Source: Mesocentrotus franciscanus (Eukaryota > Echinodermata > Echinoidea > Camarodonta > Strongylocentrotidae). Taken from it: a DNA stretch of 64,000 bases. The stretch is taken from positions 59,289,413 to 59,353,412 of the forward strand of contig CP137666.1 in assembly GCA_037976565.1 (NCBI GenBank), written 5' to 3'. A program made the translations under genes and the position numbers. The notes beneath the pieces are model-generated. The model was not told the origin of the DNA. It worked only from the letters and a program-made list of their open reading frames with translations, and made no database searches. Below, one piece after another: positions 1,101 to 54,957 of this stretch (the stretch's first letter is position 1; every line of letters starts with the position of its first letter).

Positions 1101-1246
1101 ATATTTGGATCCATGTCCCGGAATTGTCGACAATGGTATACAGTGCCTAACGGCAGCATGGCCCTACCTGGGAAAGAACAGTGCTACGCCGTGTCAGCCT
1201 CTCGAAAGGAAGCTATTTGTATCCTCTATGTATGGAACATGCATCT
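1101..1246 (+). CDS. Gene A exon: end of first extracellular module (four-Cys part)
   Basis: Acceptor CCTTAG, donor GTACGT, phase 2 in and 1 out, 146 nt, the same length as its gene B counterpart at 48776. It reads YLDPCPG...DNG.QC...TPC...GTC, four cysteines with a Trp between the second and third. No known domain is recognised. It lost the RERKR basic cluster that gene B has at this place. Confidence 0.8.
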
Positions 1247-4200
1247 GTACGTATTTAAATACTCATTATAAACTAAACTAGGAAATATAACGACCTACTT
1301 CGAAAAGATGTTAGTCTTGCAATACATTGATTTTCCGTACCTTGATTTTAATGTGCAATTTGCTGAGTCTACGATAGGCTGTCAAACTATTTTTCTGGCA
1401 TGAGTACATTACCAACCTGATGTATGTTGGTGATTTATGCTATTCTTTTCGAAGGATTTCCAGCATTTGTTTAGTAATCGTTACATTTGTTGAAAATTAT
1501 CCATTTATTAAATTGTTGTTGCACATAAAGCCAAAATAACCTGGTTGGATACCATTACGCTAGATTTAAAAAAAATTATAAAATTCCGAAAATTAAAAAA
1601 ACTTGTTTCTTTTTTAAATGGAATAGAAAATGATTCACTAAAAGCGTTTTGTTGTTGTTGTTGCAATCCCTGCACGCATAGCTTCGCCAGAAATAGTCGT
1701 CATCTCTAAAAACCAAACTGGTTATCCAAGTGATAACATCTCGATCTCTTGCTATGCCATCGGGTTACCACAACCTGTAGTCTCCTTGCTACCCATCGTA
1801 GACCCAGAGTCGAGGGCTGAAGTGGGTCCATCAGCCTTTCAACAAGTCCAATTGTCAAATGGAACAGACATTACGTAAGGAGAATGCATAACATAATCGC
1901 ATAGACTTTCGAAAATTAACTTACAGTCCTTAAACTTATTACCAATTAAAATGAGATGACATTACGCTAACGTAATATACGTAATCCAAACATTATTTCT
2001 TAAAGGGCAAGTCCACTCAAAAAATAACTTACTTTCAATAAAAGCAGAAAAATCAGACAAACCAATCAAAAAAGTTTGAGCAAAATCGGGTAACTAATAA
2101 GAAAGTTATGAATTTTTGAAAAAGTATGTAAAACTATGGAACAATGAGAATCACAACACAAATTGCCAAGATGGTTATCAGTTTGTGACGTCATGTCCTC
2201 ACAACTTATCAATTGCTTTATATAGTTTAATCCCATTAATTTCCTTTTATCCCCAAAACTTGATTTCCCTATGCCTTTGCCCAGGTTATATGATTTGTAT
2301 CATATTGCGTGCATGACATTTCCCAAAATCTTTTTATGAATTTTGAAGAATTGATACTATTTTCTGAATATTGTATTTCATAATTATTGATTTCTATATA
2401 AATAGTTTATCAAAATTCAATTGTTCATGATTTAACTGGACAAAAATTACTCTTTATTTGTGCATCCACACAAATTTACTAACAATCTAACTTGGATGCT
2501 GGTGTGAAGAAATAAGATTCTTAGGGTGAAAATAGGAAATTTATATTATCAATATAAAGAAAATAATTAGTGGATAGTGAGGACCACACGTCACAGACTC
2601 ATGAGTGAGTTGCCAATTTGTGTAGTGATTTTCAAAGTTTTTCATGTCATTAAAAATTCATAACTTTCTTATTATTTATCCGATTTTGGTCGAACTTTTT
2701 TTGATTGGTTTGTCTGATTTTTCTGGTTCTATTGAAAGTAAGTTATTTTTGGAGAGGACTTGAGCTTTAACTACTAGATATACAATTGAAATTACTTCGA
2801 GTTAATTTCTAGATAGCTTTTGCAATCGTGTTTCATATATATTTAATAAAGATGATACATTATAAGAACGGATGAATGTAATCATAATAGTCCAGTTACT
2901 ATACTTCACACAGCTCTATAGTACGAAGTATCAGTATTAATCCCGGCTTTAGCCAAGCCGCCACGATAGGGCGCGAAAGCATTCAAGGAATCTCTTCCTA
3001 CCGGGCATTCATTTACTTCACCTGGGTGGAGTGAGGCAAATATAGTTTAGTATTGTGACATGTTAATATGGTAGCAGTACATTGATCCTAAATAAAAGGT
3101 GTTTATTCAAAATGAGATATTGTCAAATGGTAATGACAATATAGGCTTAATCCGTATATAATCGTTAATCCACTGTCGTACTTTTTAAATGTTTTTAAAA
3201 ATTAGTTTTTAGTCGAAAACGATGAGTGGAATGCTTGTGAGTACATCATATGCAACTTCACCTGCCTCAAATTGTTTCCCTTCTGTTCTGACAGATTTAC
3301 CTGTACTGCTGAAAACGTTGCTGGTATAGCCACTTCAAGGGTACAAGTAACAGCACTAGGTATGGTTAAATTACGTATTCCCAGTGACGTAGCTACAGAG
3401 GGTAAGAGGAACGTGCCCCCTCTGCCCCCCCCCTTCGCATGAGGACAAAAAACAAAAATAGAGAAAAAGGCGAGAAAGAGAGCAATGAATATGGGAAAAC
3501 GACAAGGAAATAGACTATAGGACCCTTCCGCTTCCTCCCCCAATCAGAAGCCTTCTTTGATAATTATCTAGAAATTATCTTTGATTTTCCGAGAAAGACA
3601 TGTGCCCCCTCCGCCATCGTGCCAGTGCCCCATAAGCATGGACCCATGCAACGACATTGTGTATTCCTATTTAATTCAAGACTTTATGTCCGACTCAGCT
3701 GCACACAGGAGAGGTCTGTAGAAAATAAGTTAAAATATAATGACACATACAAGCACTGACATGTATACATTACAAAAGGAGAAATTAATAGATTGTACCA
3801 AAGAGAAACTGGATATATATATTGACATTGTAAAAAATGTTACGTGAACATTGTTTAACAAAATAGGTGTCAGATCAACTTTGAGGCAATAGCAGGCCAA
3901 TCATGGGCGATTTTGCTCAGTTTCTTGTAAAAGGATCTCGCGTGATTGTCAAACCAATACCCAAGTTGGGCATAAAATTGTCATAATAATTGGCCGGACA
4001 CAAAATGACCTTTTAGTCAATTTTACCAAATATGTTTACAGTGTTGTATTTCAACCATTTGTCTATAGTATATACGATTAAATCGAACATGAGATTTATT
4101 AATACAGCCTGATCACCTTAAAGTGCCCGTTCAAAGAAAATCACAAATATGGCAAATGACGTATCACTAGAAACTGGTTAGCTAACAGATGGCCATCGTA

Positions 4201-7200
4201 CAAGTTTTAGGTTAACTACATATCGGGTGATTTATAAAATTAGAAATAAAACCACCTCCATAGCACCTGGGATATACGAGAGATTCGCCAGAAAAATAAC
4301 GATGTTTTAATGACGTCACACTAGGAACCAATGTTATCCTGCCCAAGCAGACGACATCCCATTACGAATGAACATAATTGCAATGCTATTATTTCTCAAA
4401 TTATAATGAGTTAGTGTATATGTGGTGGCATTTTACACCATTCAAAAGGGATATGAAACTGATAACTAAATTCTTTTGTTTGTAAATACACAGGATAGGG
4501 GGTTAATGAACAATCAAAGAAACCACACTTTCAAATAGAACCCCCCCCCCACCCCCCGGAATGATAGCATGGATGGCATTTGTTCCCTCTTGAAACGCCG
4601 AACATAACGCGGTGTATGCAGCTGAAATTACAATGGCATCTTATTTTGTTTACTAGTGACGGATTCTTTTTTTTTATCGCTGCATTTTTCATCAAAATAA
4701 TACCATGCGCGGGGTTGAGAGTGAGGCAATAGATTAAACATTTAGCCTGACGGTAGTGAAATAAGATAAATAACTGAAGAGAAGATGACAAAACAGGCAC
4801 TGAAAATGTGTGAGATGTCATGGGACATCGTCTGCTTGTGCAAATCATGTTCAACATGTGACGTCACGCATCTCAGCAGCGTTCGGAGAGCTCTTGAGGT
4901 CCTATGCCGGGGCTGTATTTAAACGTTTTGTAATTGATAATAATCATTACTTCGAATGTTTCCAAGCATTAAATTTTGATAACCTTGTCCAATCAAAGTT
5001 CACCTTAGCAGTAATGACAATAAAGTTAGTTTTTAAAAGCAATGAACCTTCTCTTTAAAATAAAACTATGTTATAGTATATCTAGTAATAGTATGATAGT
5101 ACATAGAACTGCGCTATTCAGTGGCAGCTGGTGCAGAATTGTGATCTTTGTTTATAAATGCATCCTGTCTTTTATCTTGAATACTAGATTACCGATGTCC
5201 TGGTTTAGCTGATGCACTTGTGGACTTCCAGCAGAACCAGCTGACGGAATGTCCATCCGTTCTTAGATTACCGGTTGTAGGAAATGTTGCCCAGTCTTTC
5301 TTCTCACTCGACGTCCTTCAAGACGGCATCTTGCAGTTCTTGCCCCTGATGTTGTACATGCCTAACCCAGAGCTCCCAGAGCTCAGGGTTCCTTCCGTCA
5401 GTACGTTCCGGATTACGGTCACAACCGAGCCGGTAATAGTACCCATCCCCCAGCGTAGAAAACGTGATCTCTTCAAGATTCTCTACGAAAGAGATTATCG
5501 CAACGCTACTCTCCTCGGTGGTTCCATCACTGTAGAATTCTCACCGCCTGTCTTCGTTGCGCAGTCCACAACTCTTTACATCAACGTGCTCACTTTGGAT
5601 AACACACCTCTGAATCTACCGTTTATCCGAGGAGTGCAAGGACCACTCTCATACCTCCAGTGTCCTCTGTCGCCTCCATTGAACCCTACTGACAATGCAT
5701 CGTGCTACGATCAGCTGGATATGTGGGCCGCCATGGAGGAAGATTTCGTCGGGTTGGGGTGTACAGAAGATGCTTCTTTATCATTCCGCAACTACGAAGC
5801 ATGCCTACGTATTGGTGATGCCCGTAAGTCAATAATACATTCCCAAAATGGCAACTATGATGACCAAATTTTAGAGAACATCCTGTAAAGTCTCCAATAA
5901 TTTAGAACCTACATTTAATTTGATTTGTTATCAATGGACCGCCTGTCGCAAATAGCAATCGCAAATTGCAAGTCGCCAAATACAGGTCCTTATAGGCCAA
6001 ATTTGGCAAAAACATAATGCGCAAACATTAAAGCTAATCTTGAGCTTTGGTATGGGAATCTGTTTTGAGAGAAAATTGCCATGATTTATTCTGGATTGTT
6101 TATCCTGCAGTAGATTAATTGTTTGAACCAGTGAAATAAAAACAAATGTACAAAAACTTACTGGGCATCATCTTCGATAAAACCACAACTCCCATTTCCA
6201 AATACCTGTGTTAAGCACATGGTGTCGGGCCTACTTACCCGGATCCTTATCTTTCTATGCTCATTACTCAGCCATTATACATTTTCTACCAAAATTGTTA
6301 GGCACATGTCATTTATTCGTAATCTTGGACTCTCAGTGTAAGTTTCGTTGAATTTTGTGAGAATTTATTTAATATGGATTTGACTAATGCCATCAGGTTG
6401 TATTTTGATTGATTTCAAAGTATTATGCATACGATTGTCAGTTCATCGTTTTCCTTAAATTGAAGTACATCTTAGTCAAATAATCCGAAGTTGACAGCAT
6501 GAATCTCGATCATGCGAATTATCGTAATTATTGATGCTTCCTATTCCTCCCAGCTTAAATTTATTATTGAAATGACTGTTTATCCATCTTGAATTAATTA
6601 AAATCCAAAATTTACTTATCTCTAAAAATCCTCATTTTCCCCTCATCTCTCTCGATAGAGCCTGTTGTCAGTAATGAAGTGTCCGTTCCCCTTCTGCGGT
6701 TTTCCAAAACTACGATATTCCCTGTCCTATAGAGGGCGCTGTACGTCGTCAATGGTTGCGCGTGTCCAGTCGTGGATTGAGGACCCCCTACGAATCCCCG
6801 TCACCGTTTCTACGCTTCCAACCTTTCACCGCTGGTGACATGGGTTATTACCAGTGCGAGGGGTATGGTGGTGGGGCTTACCGCGATGAGACAGTCGCTA
6901 CCGCTCCTGTTCTCCTGACTGTTGAGGGTAAGAATGGTACCTAGGTATATCTCTATTCAGACGTTGCGCGGTCGACCTCAACAGCAGCCGTGGCAAAACT
7001 TTGCGCATTATTTGTTTAAATTTGGATTGGGAAAGGGATCGAGGGATGGATGTGCTCTAGATGGTCATTATGATTTGCATAATGATTAGAAAATTAAAGT
7101 TACATTCAGACGATACAGATGACCTTATTCTCGAAAGTAATGGCATTGTGATTGTGAACTAAAATATCTGAAAATGTGAAGTACAGGGCACCCATCTCAT

Positions 7201-10200
7201 TCAATTTTGCCACGGTTTTTTCGGAGCAGATTAATCATGACACTTACTGTCTGTACGGACCCGCCTCCTTGTATGGGTGCTAGCAGTGAATTTGAGATTT
7301 ATCTTGTTGATTTCTCTTGTTGATTGGGACTTTTAGGAGGGAATCATGGTGTCGCATCACCTACGGCCGTGGACCACTTTGTAGGTTTGCTTTTAATTTT
7401 ACAGTCAATGGGATTTACCTTGTTGATTGCATCGATCGTACTCTTTGGGTGGAAGACACGATGTCATATCCCATACGGTCGCACTGCAGGGGCTGAAAAA
7501 TCTAGAAATTAAAGTGTTGGACTTGAAATTTTAACATGTTTGAATATAGAACCTCACATAATTATAGTCCCCACCGTAATGTTACAGTGAGTGCAATACA
7601 TTTCATGCAAAATGATGTGATCAAAGATAAAATCGACGCCATTGATTCTCTCTGTAAATAATCTGATAAAATTCAAGCACTTTCTTCGAGCGTAAAGATA
7701 AACCTATGGTTAGATTAATTTCAGCTGATTTGATAGGAACAGATTGGCATTTGATTATAATGATCCTTCATCCCAACTTGTTCGCTTAATTTCATTGGTT
7801 TTCTTCGTTGCAAATATTGCGGGAATACATGTAATTAAGTTAAGTATTCAAAATATTCATGCATAGGCCTACACTAGTCCCTGCCTAACAAACTCCTCTA
7901 CATTTTCTGCTTGTTTATCTGATACACACTCTCCCTCTCTACCTCTCGCTTAACACACACGCACACAGTTTCGCGCTAATTTCTCTCAATTTCTCAATTT
8001 CTTTGTTTTAGGAGTGGCAACGATTGCCTTTTCAGTTACGTTCGAGACCGACTATATTGACTTTGAGAACTCTAAATTATTTTATGAGTATGCCCCATGT
8101 TCAGGCGAGCAGTAAGTTCATTTTCCTCATCTTCAAACACCAAATATTTACTTTTCTCGCTTGGCTTGCTCGCCAAGAGGTATGAATTCAGTGTGCTGTT
8201 GTTATTGACACCACAAAATGAAGTAAATCAACATCATCATTTACAAATTATGAAGAGATTACGTCGCCCTTATCCTCTCACGCTAACTATATAGAGCAAA
8301 GAGAAGTTTTGTTTTGCAACTGGCTGGCCAGATACGTCACTGGAATGATCCGTCCGAACTTGTCATTTGGCTAAAATAGGTCAGCGTCAGTAACTAGGGA
8401 CTTTTAGATTTGCACGACGAGAACGTGGACTGCTACATGGACATCCTTTTAAGGCAATGTGACGTCCTTTTAAGGCACTGCCGGGCACGGGCCAGTGCCT
8501 TGAAAGAATGGCAAACGTGGCAATCCATTCTCGTCGTCTTCATCCCTATTAAGACTTGGATTTTACACACGACGAACGTGGACTGCCACGGTGACATCCT
8601 TTTAGGTAATGTGACGTCCTTTTAAGGCACTGCCGGGCACGGGCCAGTGCCTGGAAAGAATGGCACACGTTGCATCCACCATCGACGTGCAAATCTAAAA
8701 GTCCTAAGGAACTTTAGATGCACGTCGACGTAGTGAACTGCAACGTGGCAACTAGCGTGGCAACAGCGTGGCAACTAGCAATGCCATTTCACACTCTTTT
8801 CAGGAATCTCTCGATCAAAACTATATGCCCAATTGCTGGAAGTCAGCTGTTGTTATCCCAGCAAGTCACCTCAAGCTTCCCAGCCTAATGATTTCAGACC
8901 AATAGCCCTCACTTCATTGGTTATGAAATGTTTGAAAGGTTGTACTCAATTCTTATTCCTAGTGTTAAAGGATATTGATGTAATGCAATTTGCATACCAA
9001 CCAAAGAAATGTGTAAACGATGCTATACTTTCACTTATACATTTTGTTTCACAACACACTGATAAAGCTGGTTGCTATGTACGGATTTCATTCATAGATT
9101 TTTCGTCCGCTTTTAATACGATTCAAAACCACATGTTGGTTCATAAGCTGAAACAAATGAACATTAGATCTTCTTTAATTTTATGGATACAGAATTTCTT
9201 GTCAAATCGTACACAAAGGGTAAAAGTACAAAAGGAGTTGTCGGATGTGATCACAGTAAATACTGGGTCGCCCCAGGGATGTGTGCTATCGGCACCTTTG
9301 TTTATCATATATACGAATGACTGCTTAGCTACAAGAGACGGCGTTAAGATCGTGAAATATGCCGATGATACGGCGATAGTGGGTCTCATAAGTAAGGATG
9401 AGGTAGATTATCGATACGAGGTGATCAAGTTTGAAGACTGGTGCAACCAAAATTTTCTTCAACTTAATACTTCCAAAACAAAAGAAATAGTTTTTGATTT
9501 CAGAACTTCCACGTTCAGTTTTATTGCCTATCACGATAAAAGAAGAAAATATAGAAATTGTCGAGACATACAAGTATCTAGGCACTGTAATTGACAACAA
9601 ATTATCATGGGCTCATCAGTGTAAGTCCGTTCTTTCAAAGGCTCAACAGAGGATGTATTTTTTAAGAAAACTTAAATCGTTTCATGTAGATAGGACCATT
9701 CTTACTTTGTTCTACAAATCCATCATAGAAAGTGTTATGTTATTTAGTTGTGTTGTCTGGTACGGGAGGTGTAGGAAGAAAGACTTTAGCAAGCTCCAGA
9801 GAATCACCAAACAAGCAGGGAAGATCACGAGTGAAATTCAAAAGTTAAATGAAGCATGCGAATCCAAAATAATTCTAGAAGTAAAACAAATTATGGAAAA
9901 CGAAAATCACCCACTCTTTCCATACTATGTTGTTATGCGTTCTGGTAAACGACTTCGTTCAATGAACTGTCGCACTCAACGTTTTCTAAATTCCTTCGTT
10001 CCTTTCTCGATTCGCAAATACAATCAAAATGCTACCTGAATTTTACGTTCTTCTTTATAACTGTATTTCTATAATGTTATTTTTGTAACCTTTCCGGGCC
10101 ATCCCGTTCACTCGAACAGTTTAAAATAATTCACTTATTTTGTTTTATAAATCACGTAAACATTTTTTTGTATAGCAATATTCTGAAGAATTTCTATGTC

Positions 10201-13200
10201 AAAGTATATGATATATTGTGTATGTAAACTTATTTTGATTCTTTGCACGTTTGTAAAATGTGAGCAAAACAAATTTCCAATATTGGACAATAAATTGAAA
10301 TTGAAATTGAATTGAAATTGAAGTCCCTAATAGGACATTTAGATTTAGACGACGAGAATGGATTGCCGTGTGCCATTCTTTCCAGGCACTGGCCCGTGCC
10401 CGGCAGTGCCTTAAAAGGACGTCACATTACCTTAAAGGATGTCACCGTGGCAGTCCACGTTCTCGTCGTGTAAAATCTAGTCCCTAATAGGGACTTTTAG
10501 ATTTGCACGTCGACGGGGTGGACTGCAACGTGTGCCATTCTTTCAAGGCACTGGCCGTGCCCGGCAGTGCCTTAAAAGGACGTCACATTACCTTAAAGGA
10601 TGTCACCGTGGCAGTCCACGTTCTCGTCGTGTAAAATCTAAAAGTCCTATTAGGGACTTTAGATTTGCACGTCGACGTAGTGGACTGCCACGTATGCCAT
10701 TCTTTCAAGGCACTGGCCCGTGCCCGGCAGTGCCTTAAAAGGACGTCACATTACCTTAAAAGGGTGTCACCGTGGCAGTCCACGTTCTCGTCGTGTAAAA
10801 TCTAAAAGTCCCTATTGGTGCGCGGTCTGCGACGAGCCATTTGAAAGTGACGTCATACCAAAAGTGAATGTAACATAATCAGTACAGACACCGCTCTGTT
10901 TTACCGGCGTATGGACTAACTGCCTTTACCACTGTTCACATGCTTCATTAGTGCAGGTAATAACGCATACGAATCGCGTGCGACGGGTATTATGATACTT
11001 TAAAATCACTAGCGCTTTTCGGAAGAGTAAAAACAACTGACAATGAGCAACTTACATTTCACAAATTCCTTTTGAGTCGTGTTAATTACGATTACAGTGA
11101 CAATCATGATTTGCCGACATTCTACAAAGACTGCAAAGACGTATATCAATATGATAATAGTAATAGCGACAGTGAATATAATAGTAATAAAGAAATGATG
11201 AAAAGAAGAAGAAGATGACGATAATAACGATATGTTAAAATCCAACTTCTCATTCCATTTCAGATACAGGGGGCCTTTGTCAATGACTACGGTAGAAGTG
11301 ACTACGGTAGTAGTCTGATAGGCCTATACAGGTCCTTGCTCGATGACATAGAGAGCATTAACGAGTTCCCACCATCGTAAACACACGCAAAGGCAGCATG
11401 ATCGTTGACTACGTCATCAACTTCAACAGCAGCATGTGGAATGACAGCGTGATTTCGATCGTGAACGCAACCGCATCCCTCCTCGAGTTTGCCTTTCCCC
11501 TGCCCTTTGGAGACGAAGTAATAGTCCCATCCATTGTGCCAGGAGCATCGTCGTGAGCAGTGCATGTACGCAGTTCAAATCGTATAAAGCGTTTTCAAAA
11601 AGGCATTAAAGAGAAGGTTGAGTTCTGGGAAGAGGTGAAAAATAATTTGTGAGCGTTATCATTGTATTATGCAAGTGTGGAAGAACATCAGATAAAAAAT
11701 GTTCCCCGAAAAGCATGGCTCTTCAAATGCCTTAATATTCTAAATATGGCATGTAACATCATAAAAATCGACGGATTTTTATGCCACATGTTCGTGTAGT
11801 CCCATATACATCTTTCTGTGTACAGTGCTTGTAACTTTACCAAGACTGGGCCAAATTTCTTATCATTTGATGATTCCAGAACCTTGCAGTATACACCAAT
11901 AATAATATGCTAGATGATCAACCTTTTCTGGTCGATTCCACAACGTTTCTTTCACAATGCGATCATGACCAGAACTCAACTTTATCTTTAACTCAATGCA
12001 AAATGTAATAACATAAATGCCCTATTGGCTCTCAGCAGACGTTTAAAATGCAAGAGCGTAACGTAATTAACGCACCAATAGAAAAACATTGAACTCCTGA
12101 ATAAAACTCCATTGAAATTGTTGTCAGATTGCTTTGATTATAGTAGATAGATAAACAAGAACCTAAAGAAACAAGTCTAAACTGATTAGATGTTTTACTT
12201 CTCAAACATAAAATAGTAAACAAGCTGAAAGATGAAAAATAATTGATATCCTTATTGAGGATCAGAATGAGTAAATACGAGCTTTATTACCTTTCCGTAT
12301 GAATGATACACTTTATCATTGCACTAATATTCATTAATAAACTGGACTGAACATGAAAATAGTAAGGTGTTTGCCCGTTGCACACGAGGCATGATTTATC
12401 TGACATAGGACTGCGTCAACGACTGGCGCGGTCATTGACGCACGGTGTGAGAGTAACATTTTACAAAGTGAAGGCAAAATTAGAAGTACTAACAAAGCGT
12501 TCTATTACCGTATGTGTGCGAGGAGGCGAATTGGCGCAGTCGGTAAAGCGTCTGCCTGTCGAACCAAAGATCTCGGGTTCGAATCCCACCCAGGCGGATG
12601 CCTAGCTGAAGCCTGCGTTGTGTGTTAACGTGCCCCTCCTTGTTTCATAGACGCAGGCTATGTTTAGTAAATCACTCGTCCCTTGGATAGGACGTTAAAT
12701 GGAGGCCCCGTGTAGAGGAGAGTCACCACCTTTGCACGTTAAGAACCACTGCACTATTCGTATAAGAGTAGAAACCCCGGTGTAGTGGTCCACCTGCACC
12801 CCAGTATACCAGTATACCCATATGGACCTTGTGGAAGATTAGCCCTGCTCTAAACAAGTTATCCAATAAAGTCTACTACTACTGGGCAAATTGCCTTCGA
12901 AATGATGCCTCAGGTGCAACGAGTGTTGGGACTTACTCGAAATAACTGCTGCTGAATGTTCTTTTGAGTTATTTCAGCGAATTAGTTTCATCAATTTACC
13001 TCAAGTAAATCCCATCAATTTTCCCAAGTAAATAAACCCATTCTCTTTTTCTGAATGAAATGCTTAGCATCCTGCCTGGAATCGGTTGTCACGGGTACCT
13101 TTGGAACCCTGAACTTTCCCGCTACACCTCTGGACCAGACCGCTGACAGCCAAGAACGGTGTAGTGAATACAGTAACAACAGTAAGTCGTCAATCAGTGA

Positions 13201-14480: not shown

Positions 14481-14511
<31 letters not shown>

Positions 14512-19589: not shown

Positions 19590-19628
<39 letters not shown>

Positions 19629-26234: not shown

Positions 26235-26384
26235 TTAAAATGAGTTATGAGTTTGGAAGCTTCAGCAGCACACGCTCGTCAAAAGAAATCTGAGTACCCC
26301 CTTCCCTTCTTCCCCCTCCTCCCCTCCTCCCCTCCTCCCCTTCTCCACCCTCCTCCTCTCCTCCCCCGTAAGTTTAAATTCAAA

Positions 26385-45711: not shown

Positions 45712-45752
<41 letters not shown>

Positions 45753-45765
45753 TAATGATATTAAA

Positions 45766-45811
<46 letters not shown>

Positions 45812-48800
45812 ATACTACTACTACCACTACTACTACTACTTCTACTACTACTAGTAATAATAATAATAAGAAGAATACATGTATGTATCGACGTTAGTAT
45901 AAGAGACTTGGACAGAGATGCAGCGCGACTTGACTAGTTGATGTCTAAACTAGAAGTGTTTATTTCACTTTTTGTTACAAACAATACGACTGTAATAAGT
46001 AATGAGAGGAGTGGACAATACCAATAATCTCTATCAATGAATAAGAGTGGTGGAATGTCCACTGAAAGATGTTATGATGAGTAAGGATGAGAATTCCAAG
46101 AAACAGAAAGCAAGATGAAACAAGACGAAAGCAAGTCAAACTAGATGATGCAATCCAAATCCAATAGTGCATTACATGTACTATATACAATCTACCATTT
46201 CAGTACGCTGCAGTGAAAATAATGATAAATAATTAAAACCCTTGAGATTCATCACTTCTTACACACTGGTTTTAGGTCGCGAATGTGAAGAGAATTCTGA
46301 AGATATAATTTATATAGATCTATTTATCTATAATTCATCGGAGCCGCCACTAAGTTTGTTCAAATGCTATATTTCTTACCCTTATCCTGAAACTAATACT
46401 TATACTCATACTTATATTACAGGAATCTCTTAGCGGTGTTGAGAAGAAGCTACGTGGGCCCTTGGAAGTTGACCCAAATGGAATACAGGTCAATCTCAGT
46501 TTCGTGATCGATGCAGAACCAAGCAACGAATCTCCATATACTGTTCCCGAGTTCCTCCAATCAGGCACTGTAGAAGTAGAATTCGTCAGGTAACACAAAA
46601 AAGACTCAAAACAGAACAGAAACTCCGTTGACATGTATGTATGTATGTAGGTATATAAACATAATTTATACAAAGTGCATGGTTATCGCTCTTTTTCTAA
46701 TTTATGACATTGGTAATTTTAGACCCCAAAATGTGTGAAATTTACATGAAATACGATCATACCAATTCAGCTCCACTTTCAAAAAAAATACTGTGACCGT
46801 TTATTAATTAATTATTAATTAATAATAACAATACACGGGCCGGCTTGTCGTGCATATTATAACCATCTCGTTTTTTCAACGGCTGGTTCAAAATTATTGA
46901 ATATTTGTGGGGCCCTACAAATATTAGAAATGGTTATATTTATGGATATTTCAGCCGTATCTATACCGATTTTTATCAAACAAACATGATTTTTGTCATT
47001 TAAATTGTATGCTTTTTCAAATTTGACACTCAGTTTTTCATTATCTCACACAAAAATTGTTATGTGTAGCGCCTTCTATACCAAAACTCAAATATCCCTT
47101 TCAGATCACTCATTATTATTATATCGCCTTTTTTACCAATCGTACATATATTTTCTTCTAGCTTATCTAATATTTCTTTATCTCCATCATTTCCAATAGT
47201 ATATGAAGAATTAATAGGCGGGATGTAAATAAAGCATACAAAAATATAATTTTCCAATCCAAAGAATTTTTCCTCCAGTTTCAACGAAATGTATTCACAA
47301 ATAACAGGGGCGACGGAGCGTCTTTCAAAGTAGGGGGGGGGGGCACCAACAAAAAAGGGACACTTCCTGGAAAAAAGAGGCACTTAACAAGCGAAATCTC
47401 AAAGCGAAAATATACAATTTTTAGACATTGGTATTAAATTGCGATTACATTATCAGGGATGATTTCAATGTTTATTTCTCTCTTTACATGGTCCAAGATA
47501 CTGCTTAACCATCATACAGTTGGGCGTGTTGGTCTGAATATTTAATTGCTAGTAAGCGAAGCCAGTCAAAATACAAGGGACAACTCTCAGAATTGAAAAG
47601 AGACAATTATAAGAGATGAAGGGGCGCTTATCAGAGATGGTAAAGGGCACTTCTTGTACCTGAAAAGGGGCACTCACCTGAGATGAATAAGGGCACTTGT
47701 GAGAATGGAATGGGGGCACTTATTACAAAGGAAAAAAAAGGCACTTGTCGACTAAAGAGGGGCACCTATGAGATTTTAATAGAGGTATCTATCAGAGGTG
47801 TCAGAAGGGGCATTTATGAGAGGAAGTGGCTCTTATTTGCATAGCAACTACCCTTGAAATTCATCACTTCTTTTACACTGGTTTTGGGTCGAGAAGAGAA
47901 CTCTGACGATTATATACATTGCCGGTAGTTGCAATACCGGTAAACACGACGAAAATCAAAATCGGAAAATACACCTCTGGAGTGTTTTTTTTAAACGCCT
48001 GTCGAAGTTTCACCGATTTTCGCAGCGTAAATGCAAGCTTCGGTAAGATACCGAATTTTGCTCGCGTCACTCGCCTCGCTTCCGTGCTAACGTATGGAGG
48101 GCATGCGGCACTGACGAGTGGCGTGCATGCGTACTACTCACCCCAAAATCGGTATGAGCAACTTCGACGGTTTTTTATGGGTTTTTCCAGTAGTGTAAAG
48201 TTTTCAACAATGACAAGCTGCGTGCCCAAGTTGCATCCTAGCTCTGAAATTGAATGCATACATAAGTCGGAATTGTCATTTACAATTAACTTTAAGAAAT
48301 TTGACAAATGCAAATAACCTTGTGACTCTCTTGGAATTAAATACACATTTGTGAAAAATGAAATGAGAGAATAATGGTGAGTAGCTTTATCGAATTTCCC
48401 CATTGTTGTTCTCCCTTTTTAATATTGCAAATGTACAAAATGTCTCCGCGGAGATTAGGCCATGGAAATTGTTATTCGGTTGGACAATTTTCAGTGAGCC
48501 TTGGCCGTAATGTATCCACTTCAGAACTATGTTCTACTTAGAAGATAAGCTTTGCACTCATTATAAGGTAATCGTTCATATTATTTATTTTAAAAACGCC
48601 ATGGGAAGTTGCCTGCGCAAGGGAATCTGTACTATTTAGTGGTATCGGAATGAGAGTATGATAGCAGGCCAATCTCTGTGTTGACGCGATTATCAGTAAA
48701 GTAAATACTCAGGGTACTCTTCATGTTTCCCCCTCAAATTTCTATACTATCTTCTCCTCTTTTTTTTCTCCTTAGATATTTGGATCCATGTCCCGGAATT

Positions 48801-51800
48801 GTCGACAATGGTACACAATGCCTAACGGCAGCATGGCCCTACTTGAGAAGGAATCGTACTACGCCGTGTCAGCCTCGCGAAAGGAAGCGATTTGTATCCT
48901 CTCTGTATGGACGTTGCATCTGTACGTATTTAAATACTCGTTATAAATTGAAATAGGAATTATAACGACCTACTTCGAAAAGATGTTAGTCTTACAAAAA
49001 ACATTGATTTTCCGTACCTTGATTTTAATGTGCAATTTGCTGAGTCTACGATTGGCTGTCAAACTATGTTTCTGGCATGAGTACATTACCAGCCTGATGT
49101 ATGTTGGTGATTTATGCTATTCTTTCCGAAGGATTTCCAGCATTTGTTTAGTAATCGTTACATTTGTTAAAAATTGTCCATTTATTAAATTGATGTTGCA
49201 CATCAAACCAAAATAACCTGGTTGGATACCATTACGCTAGATTTAAAAAAATATATAAAAATCCGAAATTTAAAAGGACTTGTTTGTTTTTTAAATGGAA
49301 CAGAAAATGATTCACTAAAAGCGATTTTTTTTGTTTTGTTGTTGCAATCCCTGCACGCATAGCTTCGCCAGAAATAAACTTCATCTCTGAAAATCAAACT
49401 GGTTATCCAAGCAATAACATCTCGATCTTCTGCACTGCCATCGGGTCACCACAACCTGTAGTCTCCTTGTTACCCGTCGTAGAACCAGAGTCGACGGCTG
49501 AAGTGGGTCCATCCGCATCAGCCAGTCAAGTATTCCCATTGTCAAACGGAACCGACATTACGTAAGGAGAACGCATAACACAATCGCATAGACTTTCGAA
49601 AATTAACTTACAGTCCTTAAACTTGTTTATTACCTATTAAAATGAGATGACATTACACTAACGTAATATACGTAATCCAAACATAATTTCTTAACTATCA
49701 GATATACAATAGGGTATTGAAATTACTTCGAGTAAATTTCTCGTCGTGTTTCATATATATTTTGTAAAGATGATACATTATAAGAACTGATGAATGCAAT
49801 CATAATAATAGCCCAATTACTATACATCATACAGCTCTATAGTACGAAGTATCAGTATTAATCCTGGCTTCAGTCAAACCGCCACGAAAGGGCGCAAAAG
49901 CATTCAAGGAATCTCTTCCTACCGAGCATTCATTATTTTACTTCACCTGGGTGGAGGGAGGCAAATATAGATTAGTATTGTGACATGTTAACATGATAGC
50001 AGTACATTGATCCTAAATAAAAGGTATTTATTCAAAATGATATATGGTCAAATGGTAATGACAATATAGGCTTAATCCGTATAATCGTTAATCCACTGTC
50101 GTTTTTTTTTTTTTATAGATGTTGTTATGAATTAGTTTTAATTACAAATGATGAGTGGAATGCTTGTGAGTACATTATATGCAACTTCAATTTCCTCGAA
50201 TGGTTTCCCTTCTGTTCTGACAGATTTACCTGCACTGCTGAAAACTTTGCTGGTACAGCCACTTCAAGGATACAAGTAACAGCACTAGGTATGGTTACAT
50301 TACGTATTCCCAGTGACGTAGCTACATAGGGGTAAGGGGAACGTGCCCCCTCCGCCCCCCTCCCATCGCATGAGGACAAAAAACAAAAATAAAGAAAAAG
50401 GCTAGAAAGAGAGCAATGAATATGGTAAAACGACAAGGAAAATAGACCATAGGACCCTACCGCATCCTCCCCCATTTATTCGTATCTTTGATTGTCAAGA
50501 TAGAAAGGTGCCCCCTCCCCATCGTGCCAGTGCCCTACAATGCATGGACCCATCTGCGTATTCCTACTTAATTCAAGACTTTATGTCCGACTCTATTGCA
50601 CACAGTAGCTAGAGGTCCGTAGAAAATAAGTTAACAATTAGTTAAACATAATTATGTAGGCCTATACAAAAAAGGAGAAAATTAATAGACTGTACCAAAG
50701 AGAAACTGGATAAATCATTCACATTGTAAAAAACGTTCCATGAACATTTATTTAACAAAATAGGTGTCAGATCAACTTTGAGGCAATAACAGGCCAATCA
50801 TGGGCGATTTTTGCTCAGTTTCTAGTAAAAAGGATCTCGCGTGATTGTCAAAGCAATACCCAAGTTGGGCATAAAATTGTCAAAAATTTGGCTGGACACA
50901 TAATATCTACCTTTTAGGCAATTGTTATCAAATATGTTTACAGTGTTCCATTTCAACCATTTGTCTATAGTATATACGATTAAATCGAACATGAGATTTA
51001 GTAATACAGCCTGACCACCTTGAAATAAAAATATGTAGTATAAAGTATGCAGTATTATAGTAATAGTATGTAAGCTATTAGAGCAGAATGTGATCTTGTC
51101 TATAAATGCATCCTGTATTTTATCTTGAATCCTAGATTACCGATGTCGTGGTTTAGATGATAAACTTTTGGACTTCCAGCAGAATCAGCTGACGGAATGT
51201 CCATCCGTTCTTCAATTACCGGTTGAATACTATTATCATCGCAAGACACGCTACGTCCGTCAAGACGGCATCTTGCAGTTCTTGCCCCTGAGGTTGTTCA
51301 TGCCTTCCGTCTTTTCGTTCCGGGTTACGGTCACAACCGAGCCGGTACGACCCATCTCACTACGTAGAAGACGTGATCTCTTCAAGATTCTCTACGAAAG
51401 AGATTATCGCAATGTCACTCTCGACAATGGTGCCATCACTGTAGAATTCTCACCGCCTGTCTTCGTTGCGCACTACACACGTCTTTACATCGACCTGCTC
51501 TCTTTGGATAACACACCTCTGAATCTACCGTTGAACCAGGGAGATGAATCTGTCTGGTTGAGCTACGCAGTGCAAGAACAACTCCCATACCTCCAGTGTC
51601 CTCTGTCGCCTCCATTGAACCCTACTGACAATGCATCGTGCTTCGATCAGCTGGATGTGTGGGCCGCCATGGAAGAAAAGTCCGTTGGGTTGGGGTGTAC
51701 AGAAGATGCTTCTTTATCATTCCGTACCTACGAAACATGCCTACGTATTGGTGATGCCCGTAAGTCAAAATACATTCCCCAAAATGGCAACTATGATGAC

Positions 51801-54800
51801 CAAATTTTAGGGAACATTCTGTAAAGTCTCCAATTATTTAAAACCTACATTAAAGGTATTACAAAGTTTTGGTATGGGGTCATGAATTTGGTTCAAATGA
51901 ACATATTGGAAGCATATGCGATCGTAATTGTCGCGGTTGAAATCGAGTCTTAAAGATACTATGTCCCTTTTGCAGCCAACATCAAATTCTGTAGAACTTA
52001 GCAGGAATTATGAATATGTCATGTATGTCCTATCTGTGAAATTTAAACGTTAGCAGTGTCCTAATATTCAAATTATGCAAGGAAACCCGTTTACTTGCTA
52101 GACTTCACTGTCAGACACTATTGAGTGACTGACTGGCCCTTTTTCATCTTTGGTAATAACATACATAAAATGAGCTGTAAAGGGTACATGAGCATTTGTC
52201 TACATCAATAACCCACTTCTTGTAATGGCCAAAATTAAACTGATTGAATCTTTGCGCAGCATAAAACGTACGACCATTCGGTACAATGGTCTGAAAAATC
52301 AGACTATTACTTACTGGCTCTATAGCTCCTAAGTCGATTCGACAACTAATAGTCGTTATTTTCCCACTTAAAGACATTTTCAAGGCCCCCTTTTTTAGGG
52401 AAGTTCTAAATTAGTATTGTCTTTCAAATGCCGTTGGAATTTAACCTATTCATTTTTTTGGCCTGCAAATGGGACATAGTACCTTTAAGTAATAAAATTG
52501 TAAATAATAAACCCTTTATGTTGTATAGCGCCCTCTCAAGACTGATATTACTTTAGCTTTAAAACAATGTTTCTTGACTATAATCGACCGATTTGCTATT
52601 CCCGTTTGGAAATTATATATCGGATTTATCTGCATATTCTGAGATTTTCATGGTCGCAGCTACCATGGAATGGCCTAATTAGGCGCTATTTGAAATATTT
52701 GAAATTTACCGGGAGCACAGGTAAATTTTGATTATTCAATTTGCCCGAAAGCAGAAGTGTTTTGGGGGGCTAAGTTTTTAGTGCTTCAAATACATCCACA
52801 GGGGCATCCAAATATATCAAAATGTAAAGAATAACTATCCATCCAATTTCAAAATTTCCCAAAACTTTGCGTTACCTTTAATTTGATTTGTTATCAATGG
52901 ACCGCCCGTCGCGCGCAAACCTTTGAAGACATCGCAAATTGCAAAATACAGGTCCTTGTAGGCCAAATTGGCAAAAAACCTAATGTGCAAACATTAATAT
53001 GTTCTTTGGATTTGACTAATGCCCTCAGTTTGTATTTGGATTGAATTTAAAGCATTATGCATACGATTGTCAGTTCATCGTTTTTCTTCAAATTTGAGAA
53101 AATCTTAGTAAAATAATCCGAAGTTGACTGAGTCTCGATCAGGCAAATTTTTATTGAGGCTTCCTATTCCCCCAGGGGAGTGTTTCACAAAGATCCTAAG
53201 TCGAACTTAACTCTAAGTTGGACTTAAAAATTATGGAGAGCCATTTGTAGCCTTAAAATAAAATATATCCAAAAGCGAAAATTCAAGTATTTTAGACTTT
53301 TTATAAATTCCACATCAAGAACATGAAATCTCCTTGATAATTAAAAAATATGAATAATTTGAATCAACATTTTATGCCTTTAAAATAACTTTAAAAAAAT
53401 ATTTGTATAGATGCTAACGGCTTTCCATAATTTTTAAGTCCAACTTAGAGATATGTTCAACTTAGGATCTTCGTGAAACACCCCCGGCTCTTAAATTCAT
53501 AATTGAAATGACTGTTTATCCATCTTGAAATAATAACAATCCGAAATTTACTTATCTCTAAAAAATCCTCATTTTCCCCCTCATCTCTCTCGATAGAGCC
53601 TGTTGTCAGTAATGAAGTGTCCGTTCCCCTTCTCAAGTTTTCCCAAAACTACGATATTCCCTGTCCTATAGAGGGCGCTGTACGTCGCCAATGGTTGCGC
53701 ATGTCCAGTCGTGGATTGAGGACCCCCTACGAATCCCCATCACCGTTTCTACGCTTCCAACCTTTCACCGCTGGTGACATGGGTTATTACCACTGCGAGG
53801 GGTATGGTGGCGGGGCTTACCGCGATGAGACAGTCACTACCGCTCCTGTTCTCCTGACTGTTGAGGGTAAGAAGGGATTGAGAATGGGGATCGAGGGAAG
53901 ACTGTGCTCCAAATGGTCATTATTATTTGCATAATGATTAGAAAATTAAAGTTACATTCTGACGATACAGATGACCTAGCTTAATCTCGAAAGTAATGGC
54001 ATCGTGATTGTGAACTAAGTTTTCTGAAAATGTGAAGCACAGGGCACCCATCTTTTTTAATTTTGCCACGGTTTTGTTTCTGAGCAGATTAACCACCTCC
54101 TCCTTGTATGGACCCGCCTGCTTGTATGGGTCCGTTGAATTCGAGGTTTATCTTGTTGATTTCTTTTGTTGATTGGGACTTTTTAGGAGGGAATCATGAA
54201 GTCGATTCACCTACGGCCGTGGACTGCCTTGTAGGTCTGCTTTTAATTGTTCAATCACTGGGATTTACCTTGCTAATTGCATAGGACTCTTTGGGAGGAA
54301 GACACAATGTCTTATCTCCTATACGGTCACATTGCAGTGGCTGAAAGATCTAGAAGTTAAAGTGTTGGACTTGAATTTTTAGATGTTTGAATATTGAACC
54401 ACACATAATAATAGCCCCCACAACATGTAAGAGTGAGTGCAATACATTTTATGCAAAAATGATGTGATCAAAGATAAATCGATGCCATTGATTCTCTCTT
54501 CCAATAATCTGATAAAATTCAAGCACTTACTTCGAAAGTAAAGATAAACCTATGGTTAGATTAATTTCAGCTGATTTGATAGGAACAGATTCACATTTGA
54601 TTGTATGATCCTTCAACCCAACATGTTCGCTTAATTTCATTGGTTTTCTTCGTTGCAAATATTGCGGGGATACATGTAATTAAGTTAAGTATTCAAAATA
54701 TTAATGCATAGGCCTACACTAGTCCCTGCCTAACAAACTCCTCTATATTTTGTGCTTGTTTATCTGATACACACTCTCCCTCTCTACCTCTCGCTAAACA

Positions 54801-54957
54801 CACACGCACACAGTTTCGCCCTAATTTCTCTCAATTTCTCAATTTCTTTTTTTTAGGAGTGGCAACGATTGCTTTTTCAGTTACGTTCGTCTACGACTAT
54901 ATTGACTTTGAGCATCCTGAAATATTTTATGAGTATGCTCCCATGTTCAGAGACCCA
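31856..54957 (+). CDS. Adhesion G-protein-coupled receptor gene B (3' partial)
   Basis: Eleven exons in order, all open, all with AG/GT borders and matching phases: signal peptide, LDLa, a three-exon beta-rich part plus a four-cysteine exon (module 1), split Ig domain, module 2, second Ig, and the first SEA exon. Exons from 48776 onward correspond one to one with gene A exons from 1101 onward, and the introns align too, so this is a tandem duplicate. The SEA second half, HormR, GAIN and seven helices seen in gene A are not found before the window end; the 7 kb after the last exon is nested mobile DNA, so the remaining exons lie farther right or are lost. Expected role: a cell-surface receptor whose LDLa, Ig and SEA parts bind ligand or neighbouring cells. 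Confidence 0.85.
33590..33875. repeat. Short-period TTACGA repeat
   Basis: More than twenty copies of TTACGA or TTACGG recur every 10-12 bp (for example GAGTTATTACGATGTATTTA), without exact unit identity. It lies in the first intron of gene B. No gene. Confidence 0.8.
34305..35056. mobile_element. Element with CAGGG(G)CGGATC ends, three internal repeats and a zinc-finger scrap
   Basis: Ends CAGGGCGGATCTA and TAGATCCGCCCCTG are inverted; CTATT flanks both sides. Inside are three units of about 195 bp (from about 34487, 34645 and 34848) with TTTATCATGCACTGCTTTTT and GCCAGGAAAACATCACTTAC and CTCGCCGCTACGCGGCTCGT. At 34368-34451 there is a C2H2 zinc-finger fragment: THTGEKP linker, one missing base, then FKCKYCEKIFNSSGNLTK. 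Confidence 0.8.
35884..36200 (-). mobile_element. tRNA-derived SINE heads (two, adjacent)
   Basis: On the minus strand, 35886-35962 reads GGACCAGTGATGGCC...GGTTCAAGTCCTGC with a 7-bp acceptor-like stem, T arm and box B; the anticodon loop lacks the usual T33, so I call it SINE-like and not a tRNA gene. A plus-strand echo (GACCAGTGATGGCCTGATGG) lies at 36049, and a second minus-strand head with GAGTTCGAATCCCACTCC covers 36130-36200. Confidence 0.6.
36475..37058. mobile_element. MITE with CACAAAAAGTAACTAC inverted ends
   Basis: CACAAAAAGTAACTAC at the left, GTAGTTACTTTTTGTG at the right, plus matching inner words around ATTATGAGCAATT. 584 bp, AT-rich, non-coding; no clear target duplication. 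Confidence 0.75.
37187..37269. repeat. 83-bp near-perfect palindrome
   Basis: Two 41-nt arms around a single G: ACTGAAATGTAAGATTCTAT at one end, returning as its reverse complement at the other with about three mismatches, loop centre CTATACGAGTCGTATAG. It can form a long hairpin. Confidence 0.88.
39020..39539. mobile_element. TTAA-type MITE, family 1
   Basis: AGGGAAATCCAACCCTAA at the left and AAGGTTGGATTGACCTT at the right, with the shared inner words GCAGAAAAATCAGA and AAGAAAGTTATGA of the elements at 2004 and 16702. Flanking TTAA is not preserved. It abuts the LDLa exon region. Confidence 0.78.
39651..39773 (+). CDS. Gene B exon 2: LDL-receptor class A domain
   Basis: Acceptor TATATAG, donor GTAAGT, phase 1 both ends, exactly 41 codons, a classic symmetric LDLa exon. 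Six cysteines in order and the calcium-binding signature CDSYDDCGTGFDEKEC are visible. LDLa modules bind ligands or proteins outside the cell. A second acceptor 72 nt upstream (39577-39578) would add 24 codons in frame. Confidence 0.92.
   Translation, partial: LPVPTVPFNAPSAKLVTPLLLYVTLMTIVVLVSMKRNAQN
40132..40256. repeat. 17-18 bp minisatellite
   Basis: Seven to eight tandem copies of GGGGTAGTTGTCCTAGA with drift toward GGTGGTTATCC. In the intron after the LDLa exon. Confidence 0.88.
40519..40684 (-). mobile_element. tRNA-derived SINE (family S2), minus strand
   Basis: Reverse complement holds GGTTCGAATCCCAGTCC and CCACTCTCCACCC as in copies 19251 and 21199. Ends about 45 bp before the next exon. 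Confidence 0.72.
40730..40890 (+). CDS. Gene B exon 3: extracellular module 1, part 1
   Basis: Acceptor CAATAG, donor GTAAGT, phase 1 in, 0 out. Product DECNETIYASFDSDCSAERK, then GLEGFVSDGEFFFRVPIFDF and VWIDR: a secreted-type, glycosylatable beta-rich piece with two cysteines. It has some look of a CUB or jelly-roll fold, but I cannot assign it. Confidence 0.78.
41637..41890. repeat. (ATT)n/(ATC)n microsatellite
   Basis: Trinucleotide ATT and ATC runs; associated open frames are artefacts. Confidence 0.92.
41944..42090 (+). CDS. Gene B exon 4: extracellular module 1, part 2
   Basis: Acceptor TTCTAG, donor GTAAGA, 49 codons, phase 0. VYLDWGRNRQSGPSTNLTEQ, FFMLRISSISNVGDV and LTVVTLQLTAN. 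Two N-x-T sites; alternating hydrophobics indicate beta strands. Confidence 0.8.
42820..43130 (-). mobile_element. LINE remnant, C-terminal end of ORF2
   Basis: Minus-strand frames show PRTNSTIYSNSFFH, RTTCLITS and FKTRLCDFSPTTQR-like text, the usual C-terminal tail of CR1/L2-type reverse transcriptases, with several frameshifts. Together with 44600-44966 it seems to be one LINE split by the element at 43150-44595. Confidence 0.55.
43150..44595 (-). mobile_element. GTGCCCC hAT-like element, reverse orientation
   Basis: Reverse complement of the 29882 element: GAAATCTCAAAGCGAAAATA near the left, then dozens of AAAAGGGGCACTTATCAGA units. Terminal CAG motif is eroded. In the intron between gene B exons 4 and 5. 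Confidence 0.8.
44600..44966 (-). mobile_element. CR1/L2-like LINE reverse-transcriptase fragment
   Basis: On the minus strand the frames read KIRLFADDAFIYRE (catalytic Phe-Ala-Asp-Asp), LSKWGSDWQIIFNTNKC, TYLGITFSSDLKWNSHINNI and VIRRNFKAC. One frameshift near 44895. Dead copy. Confidence 0.82.
44967..45600 (-). mobile_element. Second LINE remnant (different family)
   Basis: Minus strand: YIDENLSWNEHIRHII, SRNIGILFKTKCFLPKKTL, LILPYISYC, then MINLLPDSFKICFVLNN, YPTRNSLKFHL and LWNALPDSIKS. These are the thumb and C-terminal region of a non-LTR reverse transcriptase, with several stops. It is joined directly to the previous fragment. Confidence 0.8.
45601..45870. repeat. (AAT)n and (ACT)n microsatellites
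   Basis: About 270 bp of AAT, GAT and ACT triplets on the plus strand. Open frames over it are not genes. Confidence 0.93.
46423..46589 (+). CDS. Gene B exon 5: extracellular module 1, part 3
   Basis: Acceptor TTACAG, donor GTAACA, phase 0 in, 2 out, 167 nt. ESLSGVEKKLRGPLEVDPNG, IQVNLSFVIDAEPSN and SGTVEVEFVR. The LEVDPNGIQVNLSF segment lines up with the TLDNGAITVEFSP segment of the module 2 exon, supporting a repeat. Confidence 0.8.
46667..47100. mobile_element. TTAA-type MITE family 5, left-truncated
   Basis: Shares AAGTGCATGGTTAT through CCAAAACTCAAATATCCCTTT with 18684 and 26894; its first about 50 bp are missing. Keeps the empty site for the 272-bp MITE near 46999. Confidence 0.78.
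47305..47836 (-). mobile_element. GTGCCCC hAT-like element, right end plus internal deletion
   Basis: Begins CAGGGGCGACGGAGCG, the reversed right terminus, and holds GGGGCACCAAC and the AAAAGGGGCAC units. From 47427 on it is the paralogous equivalent of 1-410. Confidence 0.82.
48776..48921 (+). CDS. Gene B exon 6: module 1, four-cysteine part
   Basis: Acceptor CCTTAG, donor GTACGT, phase 2 in, 1 out, 146 nt. RYLDPCPGIVDNGTQC, AAWPYL, RTTPC, RERKRFVSSLYGRC: cysteines spaced C-x9-C-x15-C-x15-C. RERKR is a basic furin-type site absent from gene A. Confidence 0.83.
49363..49561 (+). CDS. Gene B exon 7: first Ig domain, N-terminal half
   Basis: Acceptor GCATAG, donor GTAAGG, phase 1 in, 2 out, 199 nt. 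SPEINF, NQTGYPSNNISIFCTAIG and SPQPVVSLLPVV; B-strand cysteine in IFCTA. Counterpart of 1682. Confidence 0.86.
50224..50288 (+). CDS. Gene B exon 8: first Ig domain, C-terminal end
   Basis: Acceptor TGACAG, donor GTATGG, phase 2 in, 1 out. FTCTAENFAGTATSRIQV, the F and G strands of the Ig fold. Confidence 0.86.
51136..51759 (+). CDS. Gene B exon 9: extracellular module 2 with furin-like site
   Basis: Acceptor CCTAG, donor GTAAGT, phase 1 both ends, 624 nt. DYRCRGLDDKLLDFQQNQL at the start; FSFRVTVTTEP; the basic cluster LRRRRD; ITVEFSPPVFVAHYTRLYI; then cysteines C-x13-C-x18-C-x13-C with WAAMEE between the second and third. The single exon covers what four exons encode in module 1. Function of the module unknown. 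Confidence 0.85.
51854..52877. mobile_element. TTAA-flanked MITE, family 3 (copy B only)
   Basis: AGGTATTACAAAGTTTTGG at the left and CCAAAACTTTGCGTTACCT at the right, flanked by TTAA (51850-51853, 52878-52881). Copy A has one TTAA at the same point (5911). It hosts a nested MITE at 51954-52484. Confidence 0.9.
51954..52484. mobile_element. TTAA-flanked MITE, family 4, nested
   Basis: Near-identical to 25708-26234, with TTAA at 51950-51953 and 52485-52488. Nested inside the family 3 element. Confidence 0.9.
53175..53485. mobile_element. Foldback MITE with GGGGAGTGTTTCAC ends (copy B only)
   Basis: Terminal inverted repeats of about 65 bp: GGGGAGTGTTTCACAAAGAT and CTAAGTTGGACTTAAAAATT on the left and their reverse complements on the right. 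The copy A intron lacks it (6553-6557). Confidence 0.85.
53597..53866 (+). CDS. Gene B exon 10: second Ig domain
   Basis: Acceptor CGATAG, donor GTAAGA, phase 1 both ends, 270 nt fully open. EVSVPLLKFSQNYDIPC, QWLRMSSRGLRTPYESPSPF, then DMGYYHCEG, the Ig F-strand motif. The intact equivalent of the frameshifted 6659 exon. Confidence 0.86.
54857..54957 (+). CDS. Gene B exon 11: SEA domain first half
   Basis: Acceptor TTTTAG, donor GTAAGT, phase 1 in, 0 out, 101 nt. VATIAFSVTFVYDYIDFEHP and YEYAPMFRDP. In gene A the next exon completes the SEA fold; here it is not found within the remaining 9 kb. Confidence 0.8.

Follow-up and report, generated by a model that had tools for sequence, protein, structure and literature searches.

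Receptor exons in the window

The window analysed here, 64,000 nucleotides (nt) of intron-rich animal DNA from the sea urchin Mesocentrotus franciscanus (contig CP137666.1 of assembly GCA_037976565.1), carries on its forward strand exons that probably belong to two tandem genes encoding an echinoderm adhesion G protein-coupled receptor (GPCR), whose stalk and seven-transmembrane (7TM) domain appear closest to those of vertebrate ADGRG6, ADGRG2 and ADGRG4 (GPR126, GPR64 and GPR112). Exons were called from open frames, AG/GT borders and phase, then by tblastn with two Strongylocentrotus purpuratus proteins (P0001, which is XP_011676826.1, and P0002), and then by joining. Copy 1 (1101-23292) consists of 17 exons with AG/GT borders and holds 3838 coding bases, which run from the end of module 1 (m1) through a first Ig domain (Ig1), module 2 (m2), a second Ig domain (Ig2), SEA, HormR, GAIN and GPS to the 7TM domain and a stop at 23292. 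The window starts inside m1 of this copy, and its N-terminal exons would precede base 1. Copy 2 (31856-54957) starts with the ATG at 31856 and has 11 exons with AG/GT at all inner borders; their 2103 bases join in frame to 701 codons with no stop and encode the signal peptide, LDLa, m1, Ig1, m2, Ig2 and the first half of SEA. No second SEA exon and no HormR, GAIN or 7TM exon of copy 2 was found in 55-64 kb by tblastn at E 0.01. Neither copy is complete within the window; the nine domains come together in order only when the two partial copies are combined. The receptor proposed in the preliminary description of this DNA is partly confirmed.

When P0001 was searched against the span of copy 1, tblastn gave 20 matches with E from 1.9e-6 to 2e-94, and the span of copy 2 gave 11 matches with E from 1.1e-6 to 9e-78, in both cases colinear with the protein. 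As read from its letters, the exon chain is real and beyond chance. In a blastn comparison of the first 30 kb with the rest of the window, much of 1-8461 matched 47428-55312 head to tail at about 82-95% identity, through exons and introns, and the highest identity in flank or intron was 94.8% over 1-773. The features are listed below, all on the + strand.

1..8461, +: duplicated segment, copy 1 side (blastn; partners within 47428-55312, unaligned stretches between)
1101..1246, +: copy 1, last exon of m1 (four-cysteine tail), phase 2 to 1 (AG/GT; tblastn to P0001 234-286, 72%)
1682..3359, +: copy 1 Ig1, exons 1682-1874 and 3295-3359 (Pfam Ig_3 0.0017 on the composite and 2.7e-6 on P0001, both below cut-off)
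5188..5823, +: copy 1 m2, one 636-nt exon, phase 1-1 (tblastn to P0001, E 2e-94; no Pfam or PDB sequence match)
6659..6927, +: copy 1 Ig2, one frame break relative to copy 2 (borders, tblastn, joining)
8012..8111, +: copy 1 first SEA exon, one frame break relative to copy 2 (borders, tblastn, joining)
11264..11565, +: copy 1 second SEA exon with GSMIVDY, two frame breaks relative to the S. purpuratus P0002 protein (tblastn, joining)
13068..13837, +: copy 1 HormR-like domain, exons 13068-13181 and 13710-13837, four cysteines (tblastn, 95-98% to P0001; hhalign)
15067..17517, +: copy 1 GAIN, exons 15067-15213, 15826-16225 and 17322-17517, one frame break in the last (tblastn; profile against 6v55)
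18240..18403, +: copy 1 GPS exon with C-x-C-D-H-L-T motif, one frame break (Pfam GPS 2e-13)
19779..23292, +: copy 1 7TM domain and C-terminus, exons 19779-19888, 20904-21166, 22283-22352 and 22758-23292 with stop, open (Pfam 7tm_2 1.1e-36)
31856..31955, +: copy 2 start codon and signal-peptide exon, phase 1 donor (tblastn to P0001 1-33, 91%, E 9e-13)
39651..39773, +: copy 2 LDLa exon, phase 1-1 (tblastn; Pfam Ldl_recept_a 1e-4, 22.8 bits against a cut-off of 24.1)
40730..48921, +: copy 2 m1, exons 40730-40890, 41944-42090, 46423-46589 and 48776-48921 (borders, tblastn; no Pfam match)
47428..55312, +: duplicated segment, copy 2 side (blastn; partners within 1-8461, unaligned stretches between)
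49363..50288, +: copy 2 Ig1, exons 49363-49561 and 50224-50288 (borders, tblastn, joining)
51136..51759, +: copy 2 m2, one 624-nt exon, phase 1-1 (borders, tblastn; structure model discussed below)
53597..53866, +: copy 2 Ig2, open (borders, tblastn, joining)
54857..54957, +: copy 2 first SEA exon, open; no receptor exon of copy 2 was found beyond it in the window (tblastn, joining)

Traces of other elements were also seen. A reverse-transcriptase fragment (RVT_1, E 1e-24), with an ALKBH8_N match (2e-14) in a frame that follows, lies at 8782-10036 on the + strand, in the copy 1 intron between the two SEA exons. The stretches 25694-26238 and 51940-52488, the latter in the m2-Ig2 intron of copy 2, are 97.6% identical over 549 columns (blastn), which exceeds the rest of the duplication; the pair is probably a recent mobile element. 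At the right edge, 63125-63999 on the - strand, frames match QRICH1 (1.6e-8) and DUF3504 (9e-6, below cut-off), and are perhaps the remnant of a tyrosine-recombinase (Crypton-like) element.

Domain assignment of the receptor

The window protein pieced together from both copies, referred to as the composite, was scanned with Pfam. The class B-type 7TM domain was matched by 7tm_2 (1.1e-36, 126.9 bits against a cut-off of 20.6), the GPS match (2e-13) was above cut-off and CDHLTSFAVLL can be read there, and GAIN was recognised by comparing the family profile with the GPR126 ectodomain 6v55 (2e-26). With a class B-type 7TM domain and a GPS with H-x-T/S inside a GAIN domain, the predicted protein is an adhesion GPCR. 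Among the best 60 of 149 PDB matches, ADGRG6 (1.3e-57, 199 bits) and ADGRG2 (3.8e-57, 197 bits) stood first, and L3 (1.6e-47), G4 (3.8e-46), D1 (1.7e-41) and F1 (1.4e-28, 102 bits) were lower.

SEA, HRM, m1 and m2 had no Pfam match on the composite. The HormR-like domain spans two exons, and its four conserved cysteines follow the four-cysteine HormR pattern. Compared by hhalign with HRM domains (17 rows, three of those proteins Pfam-scanned), this slot gave a score of 39.8 over 57 columns (94%, 1.4e-7), and the best of 200 shuffles reached 17.7. There was no direct Pfam HRM match in the slot, and GPR128_N was below cut-off; when one latrophilin HRM sequence was searched against the local protein set, none of the eight echinoderm HormR slots came up, and these were detected by the profile comparison alone. 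The SEA-like domain of sea urchins contains a GS-[MT]-[IV]-V-D-Y loop, and in relatives Pfam SEA matched the same slot, above cut-off in P0018 (6.9e-8) and P0016 (3.3e-7) and just below it in P0015 (1.4e-5).

The same layout in other echinoderms

The entire order, from signal peptide, LDLa, m1, Ig1, m2, Ig2, SEA, HormR, GAIN and GPS to 7TM, was found in one predicted gene model of S. purpuratus, XP_011676826.1 (LOC100893482, 'uncharacterized protein', 1515 residues), which is 76% identical to the composite over residues 1-760 and belongs to the same family. The domain order and the adhesion GPCR class first proposed for the window are borne out. Another S. purpuratus protein, XP_796775.3 ('probable GPCR 112'), is of the same family but without the N-terminus. 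Identity of these two proteins in m2 was 82-84% to copy 1 and 74-76% to copy 2; copy 1 was 96-97% identical to S. purpuratus in the 7TM domain and 72-74% in SEA.

The second protein search listed 81 proteins, and eight long ones were aligned: three from sea urchins, one from a brittle star, one from a sea cucumber, one that the tree places with sea cucumbers, and two from starfish. All eight have nine slots of like length. The m2 profile and an Ig match are each present in all eight, and Pfam cut-offs were passed in relatives' slots for LDLa (P0013, P0014, P0015 and P0017) and Ig (P0006, P0010, P0012, P0013, P0014 and P0015). One starfish protein, P0016 of Patiria miniata, has three SRCR and three HYR stretches ahead of the conserved layout. 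Since the nine slots are shared by urchins, starfish, brittle star and sea cucumber, the layout is old in echinoderms. The preliminary description took a common family of this architecture as a refutation; within echinoderms such a family exists, as these eight proteins.

For the 7TM tree, 43 rows were chosen from the 81, with insect latrophilins and near-duplicate fish and bird rows thinned. All named echinoderm rows except Spur_G6_727 form one group (94/91), in which the window copy joins S. purpuratus (99/96), urchins join sea cucumbers (91/95) and starfish join the brittle-star protein (98/86). A third protein search, with the family alignment, returned eight rows, namely three known sea-urchin members and five Ig-rich proteins whose matches cover 2-6% of the query. 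No protein named as hemichordate was among these eight rows or the 81 of the second search, an absence that means little since the searches scored only roughly 8000 candidates sharing most words.

Modules m1 and m2 and their divergence

Module m1 has about 207 residues on four exons, and m2 about 210 residues on one. In sea urchins each ends in a four-cysteine stretch and stands before an Ig domain. Neither matched a Pfam family, and m2 had no PDB sequence match. The AlphaFold2 model of copy 2 m2 is a beta-sandwich followed by two helices, at moderate confidence (mean predicted local distance difference test score, pLDDT, 61.6), and no convincing fold match was found for it.

Profiles of both modules were iterated at E 0.01 within the 81-protein set, and the E-values given are those before a row's own inclusion. 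The m1 profile was found in 7 of the 81 proteins (in P0002 as a tail fragment only; sea-cucumber rows were not recognised), with E of 7.5e-19 for P0006, 1.2e-12 for P0010, 2e-10 for P0012, 2.4e-3 for P0016 and 3e-23 for P0017, the last after its starfish kin P0016 had been included. The m2 profile was found in 12, of which 11 are named echinoderms (P0006 5e-42, P0010 2.2e-15, P0014 6.7e-11, P0016 9.3e-6, P0017 1.5e-5, P0018 5.3e-5, P0013 8e-5, P0012 4.5e-3, P0015 9.2e-3). It did not find m2 in the other 69, including the echinoderm relatives P0004, P0005, P0007, P0008, P0009, P0011, P0019 and P0020; the N-terminal opening stretch of P0005 is unlike the receptor family.

The two modules had been described as one duplicated module, which was not demonstrated. 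Their hhalign score of 15.5 exceeded all of a first 40 shuffles, but a larger set of 299 column shuffles did not uphold this, as three reached the score, and 17.6 was obtained with the reversed profile. Homology between the two modules is unproven. Diadema setosum P0010 has two m1-profile matches (116-281 and 398-587), so m1-type modules can duplicate. The m2 exon is frame-neutral (phase 1-1) and its skipping keeps the frame. Among the annotated isoforms of Lytechinus pictus, X3 (P0004) is without the whole m2 exon and X2 (P0003) has it.

Between the two copies, nonsynonymous differences amounted to 13.8% of sites in m2, 12.0% in the first SEA exon, 11.1% in Ig1, 9.1% in the m1 tail and 2.3% in Ig2. 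Introns differed at 7.3% (249 of 3428 columns), a low estimate because only BLAST-alignable blocks were counted, and silent differences were about 10%. The m2 exon lies above the introns (62.5 of 451.5 nonsynonymous sites, p 1.2e-5), and Ig2 lies below them (4.5 of 196.2 sites, p 0.002) and is therefore constrained; Ig1, the m1 tail and the first SEA exon were not clearly different from introns. Of the comparisons made for m2, the one against introns alone is strong, and diversifying selection is not claimed (nonsynonymous rate, dN, 0.153; synonymous rate, dS, 0.085; N against S, p 0.11), and over all 443 codons compared dN/dS was 1.15, not significant (p 0.52).

What stands out is two sizeable extracellular modules without a family, of which m2 is splice-optional and fast-changing. 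Tentatively, and with more doubt than confidence, we propose that m1 and m2 could each be an undescribed family of extracellular domains, so far known only from echinoderm adhesion GPCRs, that m2 could combine a beta-sandwich with a helical tail of four cysteines on a skippable cassette exon and diverge faster than introns between tandem copies, and that the array could hold receptors with a diversifying recognition module (e.g., for gamete, tissue or microbe) on a conserved GPR126-like stalk.

Proposed mode of action

As predicted from its motifs, the protein most likely acts as an adhesion receptor that can be cleaved and that senses force or contact. The outer LDLa-m1-Ig-m2-Ig arm would bind a partner carried by another cell or by the matrix; to our knowledge, the ligands of echinoderm adhesion GPCRs have been little studied. 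Because the H-L-T proteolysis motif is intact and a hydrophobic stretch, TSFAVLLDV, lies behind it, GAIN would be cleaved and hold a tethered agonist. GAIN, and perhaps SEA, would be cut with the pieces remaining together, until a pull or binding parts them and frees the peptide behind H-L, which would act as tethered agonist on the 7TM domain and G proteins. It may be through the frame-neutral m2 cassette that the binding arm is adjusted. The GS-x-[IV]-V loop of sea-urchin SEA suggests, by analogy, a second cleavage point; SEA cleavage has been discussed for SEA-bearing receptors, as has the cleavage logic of GPR126, in passages of PMC6954182.

Points against this reading and the state of the two copies

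Several observations weigh against the identification given above. Support for the slots in the eight long proteins is uneven: six have a Pfam LDLa match (E 0.1 or better), six match the m1 profile (all but P0013 and P0014) and three have a Pfam SEA match. In the window itself LDLa (1e-4 on the N-terminal piece) and Ig1 (Ig_3) are below Pfam cut-offs. The sea-urchin SEA slot has no Pfam match in the composite or P0001, and its likeness to the Pfam-detected starfish and sea-cucumber SEA slots is modest (hhalign 27.4, 3.7e-4, probability 36%), against 23.0 for the best of 200 shuffles, none of which scored as high; because its own match is modest, the SEA call rests partly on position and family. 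The sea-cucumber-type proteins P0013 and P0014 have no GSVVV-like loop in this slot. Concerning the affinity to ADGRG receptors, G3 (119 bits), G5 (70) and G1 (68) rank below L3 and D1 among the PDB matches, and the tree of 43 rows does not fix the placement relative to vertebrate G2/G4. Ligand, cleavage and signalling are all inferred from sequence. Finally, because copy 1 has six frame breaks and the second half of copy 2 is absent from the window, neither copy is shown as a working gene.

The frame breaks of copy 1 are in Ig2, the first SEA exon, the second SEA exon (two), the last GAIN exon and the GPS exon. Two were detected against copy 2 DNA and four against S. purpuratus protein only. 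All six shift the frame in the same direction, each being most simply one missing base, and they look like sequence error or a young pseudogene. If copy 1, or both copies, were a decaying pseudogene from the tandem duplication, the array would have fewer working receptors than is apparent. Six breaks in 3838 coding bases of copy 1 compared with none in 2103 of copy 2 fit such decay, and so does the unseen second half of copy 2, given that the next exon of copy 1 comes within 3.2 kb. However, a common direction is expected of single lost bases, no stop made by substitution was seen in copy 1 once the breaks are allowed for, and all four exons of the 7TM domain are open, with 96-97% identity of this domain to that of S. 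purpuratus. Unpolished sequence therefore fits better than decay, which we consider unlikely while giving it some weight.

The two copies could also be divergent haplotypes or mis-joined contigs in one assembly rather than true genomic neighbours, as the block remains alignable in introns and the 5' flank, with identity reaching 94.8% over 1-773. We regard this as distinctly improbable: for a pair of alleles, about 10% of silent difference and 7.3% of intron mismatch look high, and several divergent relatives (P0001, P0002, P0007 and P0008) are present in S. purpuratus as well. A tandem pair of receptor genes is the preferred reading.

Comparison with known adhesion GPCRs

The SEA-HormR-GAIN-7TM stalk is not new, and the unusual part of the receptor is the outer LDLa-m1-Ig-m2-Ig arm. 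Among the literature matches listed (titles and abstract starts, with some passages, most subscription papers being outside coverage), no description of this outer half was present, and no match was obtained for the accession and locus names of the S. purpuratus gene. The full domain combination may be undescribed, though it is present unnamed in public gene models. The reason first given for novelty is only partly right, the joining of SEA with HormR being already known from ADGRG6 and ADGRG4.

Amphioxus adhesion GPCRs with LDLa, I-set, CUB and SRCR are a non-vertebrate precedent for LDLa and for I-set Ig on such receptors, and in the passages of PMC2246102 that were covered neither this domain order nor m1/m2 is described. 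An echinoderm ADGRF-type receptor with other parts gained is very improbable: SEA and Ig do likewise co-occur in the ectodomain of ADGRF5 (GPR116) and a frog F5-like protein (P0079) was among the matches, but P0079 sits on a very long, unplaced branch of the 7TM tree, and the solved ADGRF1, the only ADGRF among the best 60 PDB matches, is farther away in its 7TM (102 bits, where ADGRG6 has 199 and ADGRG2 has 197). We know of no LDLa, m1 or m2 in the ADGRF5 group, nor of LDLa or Ig in ADGRG4.

ADGRG4 (GPR112), described with SEA-HormR-GAIN in the part of PMC13197933 covered, has the same SEA-HormR-GAIN-7TM order behind its own pentraxin and very long linker. GPR126 (ADGRG6) is CUB-PTX-SEA-HormR-GAIN-7TM, and its crystallised layout has HormR and GAIN behind SEA, according to passages of PMC6954182. 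It has the best 7TM/GAIN match among the PDB matches compared and the same stalk order, but its N-terminus is CUB and pentraxin, where the echinoderm receptor has LDLa-m1-Ig-m2-Ig; Pfam recognised neither CUB nor pentraxin, whether in the composite at E up to 10 or in P0001 at E up to 0.1. With the predicted SEA-HormR-GAIN stalk present and CUB and pentraxin apparently missing, the receptor is not filed as an ADGRG6 orthologue. In echinoderms the stalk of GPR126/GPR112 is thus found under a different, conserved ectodomain, and can therefore be treated as a portable signalling unit.

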